Assembly: GCF_001544355.1 (NCBI RefSeq)
Contig: NZ_BCQI01000027.1
Location: forward strand, 1 to 40,935
Direction: 5' to 3'
Length of the DNA: 40,935 nt
Source: Alicyclobacillus acidiphilus NBRC 100859
GTDB taxonomy: Bacteria; Bacillota; Bacilli; Alicyclobacillales; Alicyclobacillaceae
Below are positions 5,468 to 36,239 of this stretch, in pieces. Position 1 is the stretch's first letter; each line of letters opens with the position of its first letter. A program made the translations under genes and the position numbers. Under the pieces are notes generated by a model that did not search any database, was not told the origin of the DNA, and was given only the letters and a program-made list of their open reading frames with translations.

Positions 5468-6943
5468 CTATGGCAAGAATTCCGGCTCTCCAATCAGTTC
5501 TGAATGGAACAGTGATCGAAGGTGCTGGATGTGGCGACGATCCGACAGCACCAAGAGGTGATCGTACGCTTGCAGCCGCGTCGCCCCTCTGGGAACGATG
5601 ACATGGTTGTCACGGATAATCGCGTAGCACAAGGTGTTCTCCGGAAACTCAATCTCGACCATCTTCCGGTCGATGAAGTCCGAATTGCTCTGTATCTCGA
5701 TAGGCGTCACAATCGCGTTTTCCCGCGCGATCGCGACTAATTCCAACAACCCTTCCGACGGCGATCGCTCAAATAAGTCCAGTCTGTGCGCCAACGGTTT
5801 GACTGTCCATCCTTGCACCAAGGTGGACGCGATGACTACAAAGAACACTGCGTCCAACATGGTGCTTGGCGTGTACCCGGGTGAAAGGATAGCCGTCAGG
5901 ACCAACACAATCGGCACCGCGCCGCGAAACCCAGCCCAGGACATAAACTGTTTCTCCCGCCAATGAAAACCCATGCCGAGGGTCGACAGCCAGACGGCGG
6001 CGGGCCGGGCGATAAACAGTGCGCCTACTGCCAGTCCCAGCCCCGGCAAAACAATGGCAAACAGGCGCGACGGTGACATCTGCAGCCCGAGTACGACGAA
6101 CATGATGATGTGCATCGTCCACGACAGCCCTTCGTGAAACCGCAGAATACTGTAGCGATGTTCGAGTCTGCGATTCCCCATCACCACCGACGCGACATAC
6201 ACCGAGAGGAAGCCGCTTCCGTGGAACAGTACCGCCGCGGCGTAAGACAATATCGCAAACGCCAAGGTCAAAGTCGGATACAATCCGCCGGTATCGAGCT
6301 TGATTCGTTGATTGGCGAGGGAACCGAGATAACCTGCGACAAGACCCACGGCAAGCCCTACCAGCATCTGAAGCGCAAAGGTTCCGACAATATACCAGGA
6401 CGCGTGCCAAAACGATCCCATTCCATGTGTCGACCACTGAATCAAAACGATGGTCAAAAAGAACGCCATCGGATCATTGGTACCCGATTCCACTTCAAGG
6501 ACATCGACCAATCGTCGTCGCAGAGGTTGACCTCCAAGAATCGAAAACACCGAAGCGGCGTCTGTGGAACTCACGGCAACGCCCAATAACGCGGAAGGAA
6601 AAAACGGAAGGTGCAGCAGGTAATGCACGAGACACGCCATGATGGCGGAACTGATGAGTACACCGAAGGTCGCCAGCGAAAGCGCAGGAAGCCAAACTTT
6701 CCGAATTCTCGAAACCGACGTATGTAAGCCGCCCTCAAACAAAATGAGTATCAAAGCGATATACCCGACAGATTGCGCGGCGGACAGTGGAACTTTGGGG
6801 CTGATTCCGATCCCGCCCGGACCGAGCAGCATGCCGATGGCGACGAATCCAATCAGAACAGGGAAACCGATCCGATTTCCCACTCGAGCCGACCAAACGC
6901 CAGCTAGCAGAATCACGGACAACAATAGGAGAAATGACTCCAA
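5468..6943 (-). CDS. NhaP-type K+/H+ or Na+/H+ antiporter with C-terminal TrkA-C domain
   Basis: The protein is 491 aa from the preferred start. Residues 1-380 form a CPA1-type antiporter core of about 12 membrane segments. It includes the SSTDAASVFSIL and ESGTNDPMAFFLT stretches, where the Asp residues form the ion site, and the FRGAVPIVL motif. About residues 395-475 are a soluble TrkA-C (RCK-C) domain of the kind that senses ligands. The layout matches CvrA/NhaP2 proteins, which exchange K+ or Na+ for protons. The start is TTG at 6943 because AAGGGGGAAGG lies just upstream; the frame stays open to 6982. An extended -10 element (TGCTAGAAT) lies about 50 bases upstream. Confidence 0.9.
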   Translation of the reverse strand: MESFLLLLSVILLAGVWSARVGNRIGFPVLIGFVAIGMLLGPGGIGISPKVPLSAAQSVGYIALILILFEGGLHTSVSRIRKVWLPALSLATFGVLISSAIMACLVHYLLHLPFFPSALLGVAVSSTDAASVFSILGGQPLRRRLVDVLEVESGTNDPMAFFLTIVLIQWSTHGMGSFWHASWYIVGTFALQMLVGLAVGLVAGYLGSLANQRIKLDTGGLYPTLTLAFAILSYAAAVLFHGSGFLSVYVASVVMGNRRLEHRYSILRFHEGLSWTMHIIMFVVLGLQMSPSRLFAIVLPGLGLAVGALFIARPAAVWLSTLGMGFHWREKQFMSWAGFRGAVPIVLVLTAILSPGYTPSTMLDAVFFVVIASTLVQGWTVKPLAHRLDLFERSPSEGLLELVAIARENAIVTPIEIQSNSDFIDRKMVEIEFPENTLCYAIIRDNHVIVPRGATRLQAYDHLLVLSDRRHIQHLRSLFHSELIGEPEFLP

Positions 6944-6993
6944 CCGTCCTTCCCCCTTCTTTACGCGCAGCTTCCGTTGCACTATGTTCTTTT

Positions 6994-7100: not shown

Positions 7101-7128
7101 TTGACTTGGCACGTCGCCGGAATACAAT
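7101..7128 (+). promoter_or_regulatory. sigma-A-type promoter of the SPW gene
   Basis: TTGACT (7101-7106) and TACAAT (7123-7128) are separated by 16 bases. The expected transcription start, about 7135, lies just before the CIRCE operator, the usual arrangement for HrcA-repressed genes. Confidence 0.8.
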
Positions 7129-7139
7129 AAGAAATGTAG

Positions 7140-7166
7140 TTAGCACTCTCTAGTCTAGAGTGCTAA
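7140..7166. promoter_or_regulatory. CIRCE operator (HrcA binding site)
   Basis: TTAGCACTC, nine bases, GAGTGCTAA: an exact match to both CIRCE arms with the standard spacing. HrcA binds this site and releases it on heat shock. It lies between the promoter at 7101-7128 and the SPW gene. A second perfect copy precedes hrcA at 36213-36239. Confidence 0.95.
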
Positions 7167-7260
7167 TAAATTAAAGTTTTTGGAAGAAAGGAGTCTGACG
7201 AGGAAATGTGATGCGAAGTTGACTGCGGGTCTGAAATTGGTTGTATTCGCGGCACACACA

Positions 7261-7299
7261 ATGGATCATTCAAGGGATGCTTGGAGGTGCTTGCTATGA
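7261..7299 (+). CDS. possible 12-codon leader peptide upstream of the SPW gene
   Basis: ATG at 7261 opens a 12-codon frame whose TGA overlaps the ATG of the SPW gene (ATGA, 7296-7299). Such overlap allows translational coupling. No ribosome-binding site precedes this ATG, so it may be chance. Confidence 0.2.
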   Translation: MDHSRDAWRCLL

Positions 7300-7685
7300 A
7301 AACCCAATGGAAAATTGTGATCAATGCACTGATTGGAATTTGGTTCATTCTCACGCCTTGGGTACTCAATTTCTCGAGCGATACCGCAGCCCTGTGGACC
7401 AGTGTCGTGATTGGCGCAATTCAGACGTTGGCCTCGCTGGCAGTCTTTGCGCAAAAGCGATGGAACTCTGCGGCGCGCTTCGTATGGATTTCCTTTGTCA
7501 CTGGACTGTGGTTCATCGTTCATCCTTTTGTCTTCCAGATGCAACAAAACAGCGGAGAACTGTGGAACTTCGTCATTCTTGGCGTGATCTCCGCCGTGCT
7601 CTCGTTCTGGTACGGCTGGGAAACCAGCACGGAATCGACCGACAGCAGACATGGTTCCGGTTCCCGTGCGCAAGCGGCAAAATAA
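7296..7685 (+). CDS. SPW-repeat integral membrane protein under CIRCE control
   Basis: The 129 aa protein has four membrane segments arranged as two repeats. The first repeat holds the signature NALIGIWFILTPWVLNFS and the second the degenerate GLWFIVHPFVFQM. Each is followed by a second hydrophobic segment (VVIGAIQTLASLAVF, FVILGVISAVLSFWY). This is the SPW-repeat family, whose function is unknown. The C-terminus is a short Ser-rich polar tail. The start is ATG at 7296, with GGAGG 8 bases upstream. The gene stands alone behind a sigma-A-type promoter and a perfect CIRCE operator, with a terminator-like hairpin after it. Heat-shock induction through HrcA is therefore expected. Confidence 0.88.
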   Translation: MKTQWKIVINALIGIWFILTPWVLNFSSDTAALWTSVVIGAIQTLASLAVFAQKRWNSAARFVWISFVTGLWFIVHPFVFQMQQNSGELWNFVILGVISAVLSFWYGWETSTESTDSRHGSGSRAQAAK

Positions 7686-7728
7686 CAGTCGCATAAGATC
7701 ATGAGACAACGATTGCTGATGATGGGTG

Positions 7729-7760
7729 CCCGACTTTCATGGTCGGGTGCCCGCTTTGCT
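7729..7760 (+). terminator. weak terminator-like hairpin after the SPW gene
   Basis: CCCGAC, a 7-base loop and GTCGGG (7729-7747) are followed by a T-rich stretch (GCTTTGCTTTTG). The stem is short and the T run broken, so efficiency is uncertain. Confidence 0.5.
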
Positions 7761-7801
7761 TTTGCGGATGCACGTGAACACGAGGGATTCGTTGGCTCGG
7801 G

Positions 7802-8026
7802 TCACTCTAATCCCGCAAACGAGCCGAAGAACTCATAATGCCGTCTTTCGGCTGGCACGCCCCACTTTTTCAGCGCTTGATTGACCGCCTTCATAAACGG
7901 GATCGGACCACAAAAATAGAAATCAGCTTGGTTGTCGCCCACCACCTGTTCAATCCACTCTCCAGTGATGAAATCTGCCTGGTCAAAATTTTTCGCTTCC
8001 CGGTCCTCGATCTGGCGAGGAAGCAT
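7802..8026 (-). pseudogene. C-terminal stub of a flavohaemoprotein (NO dioxygenase, Hmp)
   Basis: The 74 aa frame matches only the end of Hmp-type flavohaemoproteins. It has the NAD-binding block ADFYFCGPIPFMKAV, then ALKKWGVP-E and the closing HYEFFG motif. The globin and FAD domains (about 330 residues) are absent. Upstream the frame meets a stop near 8070, and the recombinase remnant begins on the other strand. Intact Hmp converts NO to nitrate; this piece has no haem or FAD site and should be inactive. It was probably cut during insertion or deletion linked to the adjacent recombinase. Confidence 0.75.
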
Positions 8027-8083
8027 AGAACCTACGTTCCATGGCTCAATACGACGTTTCTGTTCGCCTCGTCATCATACACG

Positions 8084-8986
8084 ATGAGGACGACCCATGA
8101 AACGACGCCACGATTCGCTCACGAAATGTTCGAGGATTTCACCGCGTACCTTGAATCACAGAACTACTCCCCTGCGACGGTGACTGCCTACCGTTCGGAC
8201 TTCCGTCTGTTCCACAAGTTTCTCAAGGATCAAGACGTCTTGGAATTGACCGAAATCGATTCATCATTGATGCGCCTGTACCCTCGTTGGCTACATCGTT
8301 CAGGACTGAAGCGAACCAATTCAGCCCGGCGCATCAACTCCCTATGAGCATTCTTCAATGGCTGTGCGACGAAGAACTGATCGACAGTAACCCCATGAGC
8401 CGAATCAAAGTTCCACGACAGGACAAAAAACTACCGACGTACTTTCGACCTGACGAGCTGTCCCGATTTCTCAGCGCCCCCACTCTCAATCATCCGCTGG
8501 ACAAGGCAGTAATTACCTGCTGGTCAATACAGGTCTGCGACGTCAAGAGGTTATCAACCTCACCTTGCAGGACATAGACCTCACGAGCCGTATTCTGAAC
8601 GTGCGCCACGGTAAGGGGGCAAGGATCGCGTCATTCCGCTGAACGACATCGTCGTATCGGCGTTACTCGAATATCTCAAGGTACACCCCGATACAGACAG
8701 CGACGCGCTATTTATCGGGATGAGAAGTGCACGAGTACCAATCGGCGTTCAATACATGCACCGACTATTCCATCGCTGCCTCGATGAATCAGGCATTCGT
8801 CGTAGCGGTCTGACCCTTCACAAGTTACGCCATACTTTCGCGACACGGCTACTGGAACGGGGTGCCGATTTGCGGACATTGCAAGAGCTGCTTGGTCATG
8901 ACGATTTGAACACGACCCAGATATACGCTCATGCAAGCCGAGAGCGCCTGACCGAGGCGGTGCGTCTGCTTGAGGAGGGCGAATGA
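8084..8986 (+). pseudogene. tyrosine recombinase/integrase (XerC/D-like), broken by frameshifts
   Basis: Joining three frames rebuilds an integrase of about 300 aa. The N-terminal SAM-like domain starts MFEDFTAYLESQNYSPATV. The catalytic residues are all present: Arg in TGLRRQE, Lys in GKG-KDR, HKLRH, His in LLGHDDL and Tyr in QIYAH. Damage consists of a TGA at 8345-8347 and three apparent one-base deletions, near 8358, at 8517/8518 and in a G run near 8615. With all catalytic residues retained, decay is recent, or some deletions are sequencing errors; the in-frame TGA argues for real decay. The TGA ending the gene (8984-8986) is followed at once by a small ORF. Confidence 0.9.
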
Positions 8987-10480: not shown

Positions 10481-10503
10481 TCATACAAGGGTATGTAGCC
10501 GTC

Positions 10504-10927
10504 GAAGAAGCAAGCCTGTAAGCCGAGTTCTGTGCTCCTGTGCTGCAAACGGTATCGATGGACACGCGTACGCCCCTGTGATACCTCGCACGTTGGAGTA
10601 GCAATCATCTATCTAGGCTGACTGTTGCCAGCCAGCTCAAGCGACCAACCCGAGTGCGTGGCGGGCAACCACATCTGCACTCCTATCCGGTCTTGCTCCA
10701 GGTGGGGTTTACCTAGCCAGCCCGTCTCCGGGCTGCTGGTGCGCTCTTACCGCACCGTTGCATCCTTGCCTGTGTTCCGAAGAACCATCGGCGGTCTACA
10801 TTTCTGTGGCACTATCCCTAAGATCGCTCTCGCCGGACGTTATCCGGCACCCTGCCCTGCGGAGCTCGGACTTTCCTCCCGTGCGGCCTTTCGGCACTGC
10901 ACCGGCGATTGCCCAGCTTACTTCTTC
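10504..10927 (-). ncRNA. rnpB: RNase P RNA, type A architecture
   Basis: This is the catalytic RNA that trims tRNA 5' leaders. The minus strand carries the 5' hallmark GGGAGGAAAGTCC followed by the GGGCAGGGTGCC-type segment, GCCGATGG, GGTGCGGTAAGAGCGCACC, GGTAAACCCCACC, then AGATAGATGATTG and the 3' hallmark ACAGAACTCGGCTTAC. The ends were set by the P1 helix: GAAGAAGTAAGC at the 5' end pairs with GCTTGCTTCTTC at the 3' end with one wobble. The length is about 424 bases. These segments match the type A (E. coli-like) RNA rather than the type B RNA of Bacillus. Its own promoter and terminator flank it. Confidence 0.95.
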
Positions 10928-35157: not shown

Positions 35158-36195
35158 TCAATGGCCCTCAATCCAGCGCGACATCATCTGCGTCATCGAT
35201 TCGGACGTATAGTTGAGGATTTGCATAATCCGGTTGTAGTCCATCCGCGTGGGCCCCAACACTCCAATATGACCCACCGGGCGTCCGTGCAAACTATACG
35301 TCGTCGTGATCACGGTGCAATCCTGCAAAGCGCCAATCGGATTTTCAGCGCCGATGCGCACCTGCAGTCCCAGCCCTTCCGTGGGGAACAAGCTTGCAAC
35401 CGTTTGCCCCTGCTCCAGCAACGTCAAAATCGTCTGAGCCTTCTCCACATCGTGAAACTCCGGTTGGCTCAACATGTTTGAAGCGCCGCCTATATAGACA
35501 GGCTCTTCGCGTTGGCTCACTTGGCAAACCTCGTTCAGAACCGCTAGGGCGTCCTCAAACCGTTCCACGGTCTGGGCCAATTCTTCCGACAGCTTGCTGT
35601 ACAGATTGCTGCGCAGCCTCGAAATGGGCACACCAACCAATTTGTCGTTCAACACGTGGACGATCGATTCCAGATCTTCGACGCGAATGTCTTCGGACAA
35701 TTGAACCGCGCAATTTTCCACATGGCCCGCGTCCGTCACGAGAATGGCCACAACGCGGCCGCGCGCGAGCGGAACCAATTCGATTTTCCGGACCTTTTCG
35801 GTATACATCTTTGGACCGAGCACAATCGCGGTCTGGCGCGTCAAGGAAGACAGCACCGTCGTGACTTCGCGCACGGCCTTCTCCACTTCGTCGATCCGGC
35901 TCGTGAAAAATTCGCGAAGGCGTTCGCCTGTGGCGCGATCGAAACCGCCCTGCTGCTGCAGCAAGTTATCTACGTAAAACCGATAACCCTTCTGCGACGG
36001 AATGCGTCCGGACGACGTGTGAAGCTGGGTCAGATACCCCATTTCTTCGAGATCGGCCATCTCGTTTCGAATCGTCGCGGGGCTGAACTGAATATCATCG
36101 TGCTTGGCGAGTGCCCGAGACCCGACTGGCTCAGCCATTCGCACATAGTCTTCAATAATTGCAGACAAGATCAACTCTTGGCGTGGGGTCAGCAT
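35158..36195 (-). CDS. hrcA: heat-inducible repressor HrcA
   Basis: HrcA binds CIRCE operators and represses chaperone genes at normal temperature. The 346 aa protein has an N-terminal winged-helix domain starting MLTPRQELILSAIIEDYVRMAEPVGSR and a GAF-like middle domain (about 100-300). The start is ATG at 36195, with GGAGG 6 bases upstream. The upstream region has a promoter and perfect CIRCE operator, so it represses itself. The same regulator should act on the second CIRCE at 7140-7166. Confidence 0.97.
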   Translation of the reverse strand: MLTPRQELILSAIIEDYVRMAEPVGSRALAKHDDIQFSPATIRNEMADLEEMGYLTQLHTSSGRIPSQKGYRFYVDNLLQQQGGFDRATGERLREFFTSRIDEVEKAVREVTTVLSSLTRQTAIVLGPKMYTEKVRKIELVPLARGRVVAILVTDAGHVENCAVQLSEDIRVEDLESIVHVLNDKLVGVPISRLRSNLYSKLSEELAQTVERFEDALAVLNEVCQVSQREEPVYIGGASNMLSQPEFHDVEKAQTILTLLEQGQTVASLFPTEGLGLQVRIGAENPIGALQDCTVITTTYSLHGRPVGHIGVLGPTRMDYNRIMQILNYTSESMTQMMSRWIEGH

Positions 36196-36212
36196 CTCTC
36201 TCGCCTCCTCTG

Positions 36213-36239
36213 TTAGCACTCAAACGAACCGAGTGCTAA
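36213..36239. promoter_or_regulatory. CIRCE operator of the hrcA operon
   Basis: TTAGCACTC, nine bases, GAGTGCTAA: a perfect CIRCE. It begins 18 bases upstream of the hrcA ATG and just after the promoter, so HrcA can block its own transcription. Confidence 0.97.

Follow-up and report, generated by a model that had tools for sequence, protein, structure and literature searches.

In groESL operons, HrcA represses transcription through a CIRCE element that lies behind the promoter, and the repression is relieved when GroEL is drawn away. CtsR is the second heat-shock repressor of Gram-positive bacteria, and clpP and genes for Clp-type ATPases are its classical targets. Proteins of the SPW repeat family (PF03779) have been modelled as repeats of two helices in which the SPW motif lies close to the outer side, and members that carry an extra VKOR or epimerase domain are reported in the same source (PMC8078820). 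The literature searched yielded no paper on how SPW genes are regulated.

The SPW gene described here resides in a stretch of 40,935 nucleotides from an Alicyclobacillus-type bacterium, the whole of which we call the window. Judged from sequence, this gene is likely a member of a heat-shock (proteostasis) regulon, controlled by HrcA in this organism and by CtsR in several further genera of its family.

The SPW gene, its operator and hrcA in the window

Elements of the SPW locus and of the hrcA region are as follows.

7101 to 7128, + strand: sigma-A-type promoter, TTGACT-16-TACAAT, 10 of 12 consensus matches
7140 to 7166, + strand: perfect CIRCE operator, TTAGCACTCTCTAGTCTAGAGTGCTAA, 11 nt past the -10
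7167 to 7295, + strand: 5' leader of 129 nt between CIRCE and the ATG
7283 to 7288, + strand: Shine-Dalgarno sequence GGAGGT, read in the sequence
7296 to 7685, + strand: SPW-repeat membrane protein gene (PF03779), 129 amino acids, four hydrophobic segments
7723 to 7753, + strand: terminator-like hairpin of 13 pairs with a weak T tract, from folding and a terminator search
35158 to 36195, - strand: hrcA, the CIRCE repressor, with its ATG read by eye behind AGGAGG
36213 to 36239, - strand: second perfect CIRCE, before hrcA

The operator at 7140 to 7166 has the form TTAGCACTC-N9-GAGTGCTAA with 0 mismatches. When up to three mismatches are allowed, the window contains two CIRCE matches, this one and that at 36213 to 36239, compared with 0.02 expected. 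The earlier note's observation of a perfect CIRCE behind a sigma-A-type promoter and ahead of an SPW gene is thus upheld. The span 7101 to 7685, which the note treated as the feature, does include the SPW gene, but position 7101 is the start of the promoter, and the gene itself extends from an ATG at 7296 to a stop codon at 7683 to 7685.

Promoter-like pairs of such quality are expected 0.9 times per shuffled 1-kb region and are weak evidence alone, so that it is the place of this pair that counts, and not its presence. It is the sole promoter-like pair found between 6900 and 7900, and it points toward SPW. The gap from the -10, taken as the best consensus match, to CIRCE is 11 nt at the window's SPW gene, at the SPW gene of A. 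suci and at groES, and 14 nt at hrcA. Only 8 of 12 consensus positions match in the promoters of groES and of A. suci SPW. Folding of the leader region (7135 to 7275) is no better than that of shuffled sequences (z -1.3). The hairpin that the note placed after the gene is a strong fold, since the region 7700 to 7770 beats 200 of 200 shuffles (z -4.7), although the T tract is weak and two terminator-like sites were found where shuffles give 1.6.

The predicted protein scores 71.4 bits against PF03779 (cut-off 31.5) over profile positions 1 to 92 of 93, and the tripeptides TPW and HPF occupy the two SPW motif places. Hydrophobic segments at residues 7-25, 33-51, 62-80 and 89-107, together with an N-terminus and a middle loop that carry positive charges, would fit a protein of four transmembrane helices with both ends inside. 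The protein has no cysteine. AlphaFold2 models are poor (mean pLDDT 59.1 and pTM 0.32 with 19 sequences, 61.1 and 0.33 with 39), and both of these low-pLDDT models display four helices. A profile of 19 SPW proteins gave no match to solved structures up to E = 1.

Downstream of SPW, an ORF at 7838 to 8344 (+ strand) matches only the N-terminal SAM-like domains of phage-type integrases (PF02899, 44.5 bits), and looks like a truncated remnant of a mobile element. The window also carries a bacterial class A RNase P RNA at 10503 to 10924 (- strand, 303.9 bits).

The note had further assigned the second CIRCE to hrcA and taken the regulator to be present, and both assignments hold: the site at 36213 to 36239 precedes a gene whose product matches PF01628 with 224 bits, and also PF03444, as scored on the longer ORF 35158 to 36219. 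SPW, hrcA and groES are each preceded by a perfect CIRCE in the 3.86-Mb assembly, which contains no fourth perfect one and a single further CIRCE-like site with two mismatches. DnaK and GrpE labels were assigned by position alone.

CIRCE elements and SPW genes in relatives

Each of the 41 genomes in the GTDB family has CIRCE elements with at most two mismatches. Among the 105 with zero or one mismatch, 51 are assigned to groES(L), 42 to hrcA, 8 to htpG and 3 to SPW, and a single one, located at a contig end, has no assigned gene; the perfect elements alone are distributed as 48, 40, 7, 3 and 1. The HrcA label was Pfam-checked on the window's gene, and the GroES, HtpG, ClpP and SPW labels on examples. 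SPW is the only assigned target of these elements besides chaperone and hrcA genes.

The three cases of CIRCE before SPW are the window genome and G003 and G013, two relatives from its genus. The CIRCE-SPW stretch in G013 is identical to that in a record of A. suci (L231), and G003 and G013 share an identical SPW protein and an identical CIRCE loop, and therefore represent one lineage, so that the association rests on two lineages. Between the window and the G003/G013 lineage the CIRCE loop, the leader length and the neighbouring genes differ, yet CIRCE still stands before SPW. The 13 ORFs around the window's SPW gene had no counterpart at 39 SPW loci, a set that includes duplicate places and in which most flanks are 1.5 to 2.5 kb. 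Because CIRCE precedes SPW here and in two relatives of the same genus, and lies 11 nt from the -10 as at groES, control of the window's gene by HrcA is well supported by sequence, and its place in the class I regulon, as a gene that encodes no chaperone, is very probable.

SPW genes occur in 29 of the 41 family genomes, in 31 of 398 sampled Bacilli and in 25 of 398 sampled Bacillota, where 10 to 11 are above Pfam's cut-off (15 of the 25 phylum loci fall below it). For the order we used one SPW gene per genome, 31 in total, of which 29 are from the family and two from a sister family (G048 and G050); in G005, G006, G007, G018 and G020 the SPW start is approximate. CIRCE is absent from 28 of these 31 genes, which, taken alone, would weaken the idea of HrcA control. 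The refuting condition proposed in the note, a lack of CIRCE upstream of SPW in relatives, thus has a mixed outcome: CIRCE recurs in G003 and G013, which are one lineage, but not in these 28 genes or at the scanned loci outside the family.

Neither CIRCE nor a CtsR-type site (described below) precedes 20 of the 31 genes, including those of the close relatives G026, G027, G028 and G035; in G031, for example, the best CIRCE match has seven mismatches and the CtsR score is -12.2. In a scan of 32 SPW loci from named genomes, A. suci alone has CIRCE before SPW, and the rows from Bacillaceae and Paenibacillaceae have neither type of site. Neither operator was detected at 34 class and phylum loci and five plasmid loci, where the best CtsR score is 7.5 and the fewest CIRCE mismatches are seven. 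No SPW gene scanned outside the family, in samples of Bacillota and five plasmids, reached the CIRCE or CtsR threshold. Upstream stretches at named-genome, class and phylum loci were counted from the profile match and not from a checked start codon, and those of plasmid loci from the annotated start (L324: from the match). Positions of the 34 class and phylum loci were rechecked; three are at contig ends, and none scores 8. The plasmid scan covered 5 of the 140 plasmid records with an SPW match. HAIR (HspR) sites, sought with a consensus sequence, were not found within three mismatches at the 32 named-genome loci or the 39 class, phylum and plasmid loci.

SPW genes are frequent on Priestia plasmids, which can be as small as ~10 kb, and these account for 29 of the 140 matching records (NZ_CP035098.1, NC_014031.1 and 27 others). 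SPW genes of Bacillaceae, of Priestia plasmids and of one Paenibacillus have a palindrome of the GAAATC...GATTTC type behind the -10, at the place that CIRCE would occupy and just before the SPW start (L229, L230, L232, L233, L247, L321, L322, L323 and L325). Two of its six pairs exhibit two-sided changes, and its consensus fold is very weak (-0.12 kcal/mol). This palindrome could be an operator or a 5' hairpin.

Another CIRCE-like site, with one half changed, is found in at least 15 genomes among the matches listed, as TTAGCAGCC-N9-GAGTGCTAA in at least 12 and with TTAGCAGAC in at least three. Three such sites were inspected (G000:C13:51559-51585, which is L004, and L070 and L073). By eye, the gene downstream resembles a sugar-nucleotide transferase or a glycosyltransferase in all three, a -10-like box is nearby in two, and the site has no Rfam match. 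It may represent a second non-chaperone target of HrcA, and the retention of a site with two mismatches in at least 15 genomes shows that non-chaperone genes other than SPW may also carry CIRCE-type sites.

CtsR-type sites before SPW genes in other genera

CtsR is encoded in 40 of the 41 family genomes. We modelled its operator as a weight matrix from 40 ctsR promoters (28 distinct cores), using no SPW sequence; the core spans 22 bases, with hexads at offsets 0, 10 and 16. A CtsR-type site (score of at least 8) is present in 8 of the 28 SPW promoters that lack CIRCE, in genera g2, g5, g9, g13 and g14, and all eight genomes encode CtsR. Scores are 22.8 (G015), 18.8 (G036), 16.5 (G037) and 15.0 (G030) for the strong sites, and 10.0 (G025), 9.3 (G023), 8.7 (G016) and 8.1 (G024) for the weak ones. 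The best scores among 571,822 background windows, mostly around CIRCE sites and so not random genome, are 11.0 and 7.5. At SPW loci (222,234 windows, SPW promoters included), two windows outside the promoters reach 8, with scores of 10.5 (L034) and 8.5 (L023). Given that windows of 11.0 and 10.5 occur elsewhere, the four strong sites rise above the background and the four weak ones do not.

When SPW promoters were shuffled by dinucleotides, none of 300 shuffles reached the promoter's own score in seven of the eight cases, and 1 of 300 did so for G016. The sites stand in both orientations, and their hexad spacing of 0/10/16 is that of ctsR operators. Of the SPW genes associated with CIRCE, the window's has a best CtsR score of -11.2 in 250 bp, indicating no CtsR operator, and that of G003 reaches 4.3. 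Ten further SPW copies (loci L215-L224) score 3.2 at best. Five of the 32 named-genome loci score at least 8 (A. macrosporangiidus, A. contaminans and three metagenome assemblies), and all five are copies or close kin of genomes already scored.

Ten whole genomes were also searched with a CtsR core pattern, which was loosened after the SPW sites were known. In G036 the exact pattern matches at only two places, ctsR and SPW. The SPW sites of G015 and G023 are recovered at one mismatch and that of G024 at two, and those of G016, G025, G030 and G037 are not within two mismatches. Among 13 other matching loci that were inspected, six are at clpP and four at a gene for a Clp-type ATPase, as assigned by eye with one of each Pfam-checked. 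Three do not fit: L277 is before small genes, and L293 and L294, both at two mismatches, have no clear gene. CtsR may thus control SPW in these genera, where the gene is probably a member of the class III regulon, and the presence of such sites in five other genera suggests that the link of SPW to heat shock may be broader than HrcA.

At five clpP loci (L269, L270, L272, L273 and L285) the CtsR-type site lies between clpP and a divergent gene for a small membrane protein, YgaP-like_TM, with a match to PF11127 in L270 and L273, the two loci that were tested. This gene may be one more membrane protein gene in the CtsR regulon.

In the SPW tree, the window's gene is on a long branch and does not group with that of G003. 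Nonetheless, a single clade of CIRCE-associated SPW genes is not rejected by the AU test (p 0.079). The A. suci gene (L231_spw) was counted as having no group in the tree grouping despite its CIRCE, and was included in the AU test. The split in the tree, the AU result and the occurrence of CtsR-type sites in both orientations make repeated recruitment of heat-shock repressors to SPW possible.

Regulatory reading, alternatives and known systems

The CIRCE might instead serve the divergent Na+/H+ antiporter gene (5468 to 6982, - strand), or be a stray or decoy site, with SPW as a bystander. The longest antiporter ORF begins 158 bp from the CIRCE, on the opposite strand, but the only promoter-like pair between 6900 and 7900 reads away from it, toward SPW. 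In G003 CIRCE again adjoins SPW, but the gene on its far side encodes a peptidoglycan-binding-domain protein and not an antiporter. The lack of the window's 13 surrounding ORFs at 39 SPW loci, and the assignment of 104 of 105 family CIRCEs to a chaperone, hrcA or SPW gene, also argue against this explanation, which we consider very improbable. Slightly less remote, though still unlikely, is the proposal that the CtsR-type sites before SPW arose by chance or belong to another repressor, in which case heat-shock control would be confined to the CIRCE lineages. Four of the sites are weak (8.1 to 10.0) in comparison to windows of 11.0, 10.5 and 8.5 elsewhere, and the sites have no fixed orientation. 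However, eight of 28 promoters reach a score of 8 when ~0.05 would be expected (from three other windows in ~794,000, and 28 x 458 windows), with the qualification that the genomes are related, though from five genera, and both the shuffles and the hexad spacing favour genuine ctsR-like operators.

Control of a general envelope or redox protein by several stress regulons, with heat as one input among them, is an explanation to which we give real weight, although we hold it possible rather than probable. It would accommodate the 20 of 31 order SPW genes and all 39 class, phylum and plasmid loci that have neither a CIRCE nor a CtsR-type site, the nine SPW genes in Bacillaceae, Priestia plasmids and one Paenibacillus with a different palindrome at CIRCE's place, and the SPW proteins with VKOR or epimerase domains noted in PMC8078820. 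On the other hand, the operators sought and found in the family are those of two heat-shock repressors, with the caveat that few other kinds were sought.

We favour membership of SPW in a heat-shock regulon, and it looks like a heat-shock gene, under either repressor, in parts of the family. From established HrcA and CtsR biology, and from the same operator in the same position, we infer how repression and induction might proceed. HrcA would bind the CIRCE just behind the promoter and hold SPW expression low. Heat or unfolded protein would draw GroEL from HrcA and lift repression, so that SPW, GroESL and the hrcA operon would be expressed at the same time. CtsR would take the same role, through its own operator, in a number of further genera of the family. 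The predicted four-transmembrane protein most likely acts in the cytoplasmic membrane when heat or unfolded proteins stress the cell, and the plainest guess, in line with the note, is that it protects the membrane or the proteins in it from heat. On a wider and rather doubtful conjecture, SPW proteins of the family make up a membrane arm of the heat-shock response, as small guards with four transmembrane segments that protect the membrane or its proteins and that came under heat-shock repressors several times, under HrcA and CIRCE in one genus and CtsR in others.

Since the CIRCEs of the family with at most one mismatch otherwise mark, where a gene is assigned, chaperone and hrcA genes, the SPW family, which has no known function, gains a setting in protein-folding stress. 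If CtsR holds SPW in related genera, as it seems to, a stray operator becomes less probable, and a switch by a heat-shock repressor is a first testable clue to the protein's role.

Among described systems, the window's locus resembles the HrcA/CIRCE class I regulon in its operator, in the presence of the repressor in the genome and in the groES-like place of the operator behind the -10. Its target, however, is an uncharacterised membrane protein and not a chaperone or hrcA operon. The SPW promoters of five other genera resemble the CtsR class III regulon in that their sites are of the type seen at ctsR, at clpP and at a gene for a Clp-type ATPase, but SPW is no protease or chaperone subunit, and the window's SPW gene has no CtsR-type site. 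The protein conforms to the SPW repeat family in its nearly full-length match to PF03779 (71.4 bits, positions 1-92 of 93) and its four hydrophobic segments. A further parallel is lp_0726 of Lactobacillus plantarum, a membrane-bound CAAX-family protease tabulated in its source among genes with a predicted HrcA or CtsR site, although it belongs to a different protein family, a distinction made here by name only (PMC3842655).
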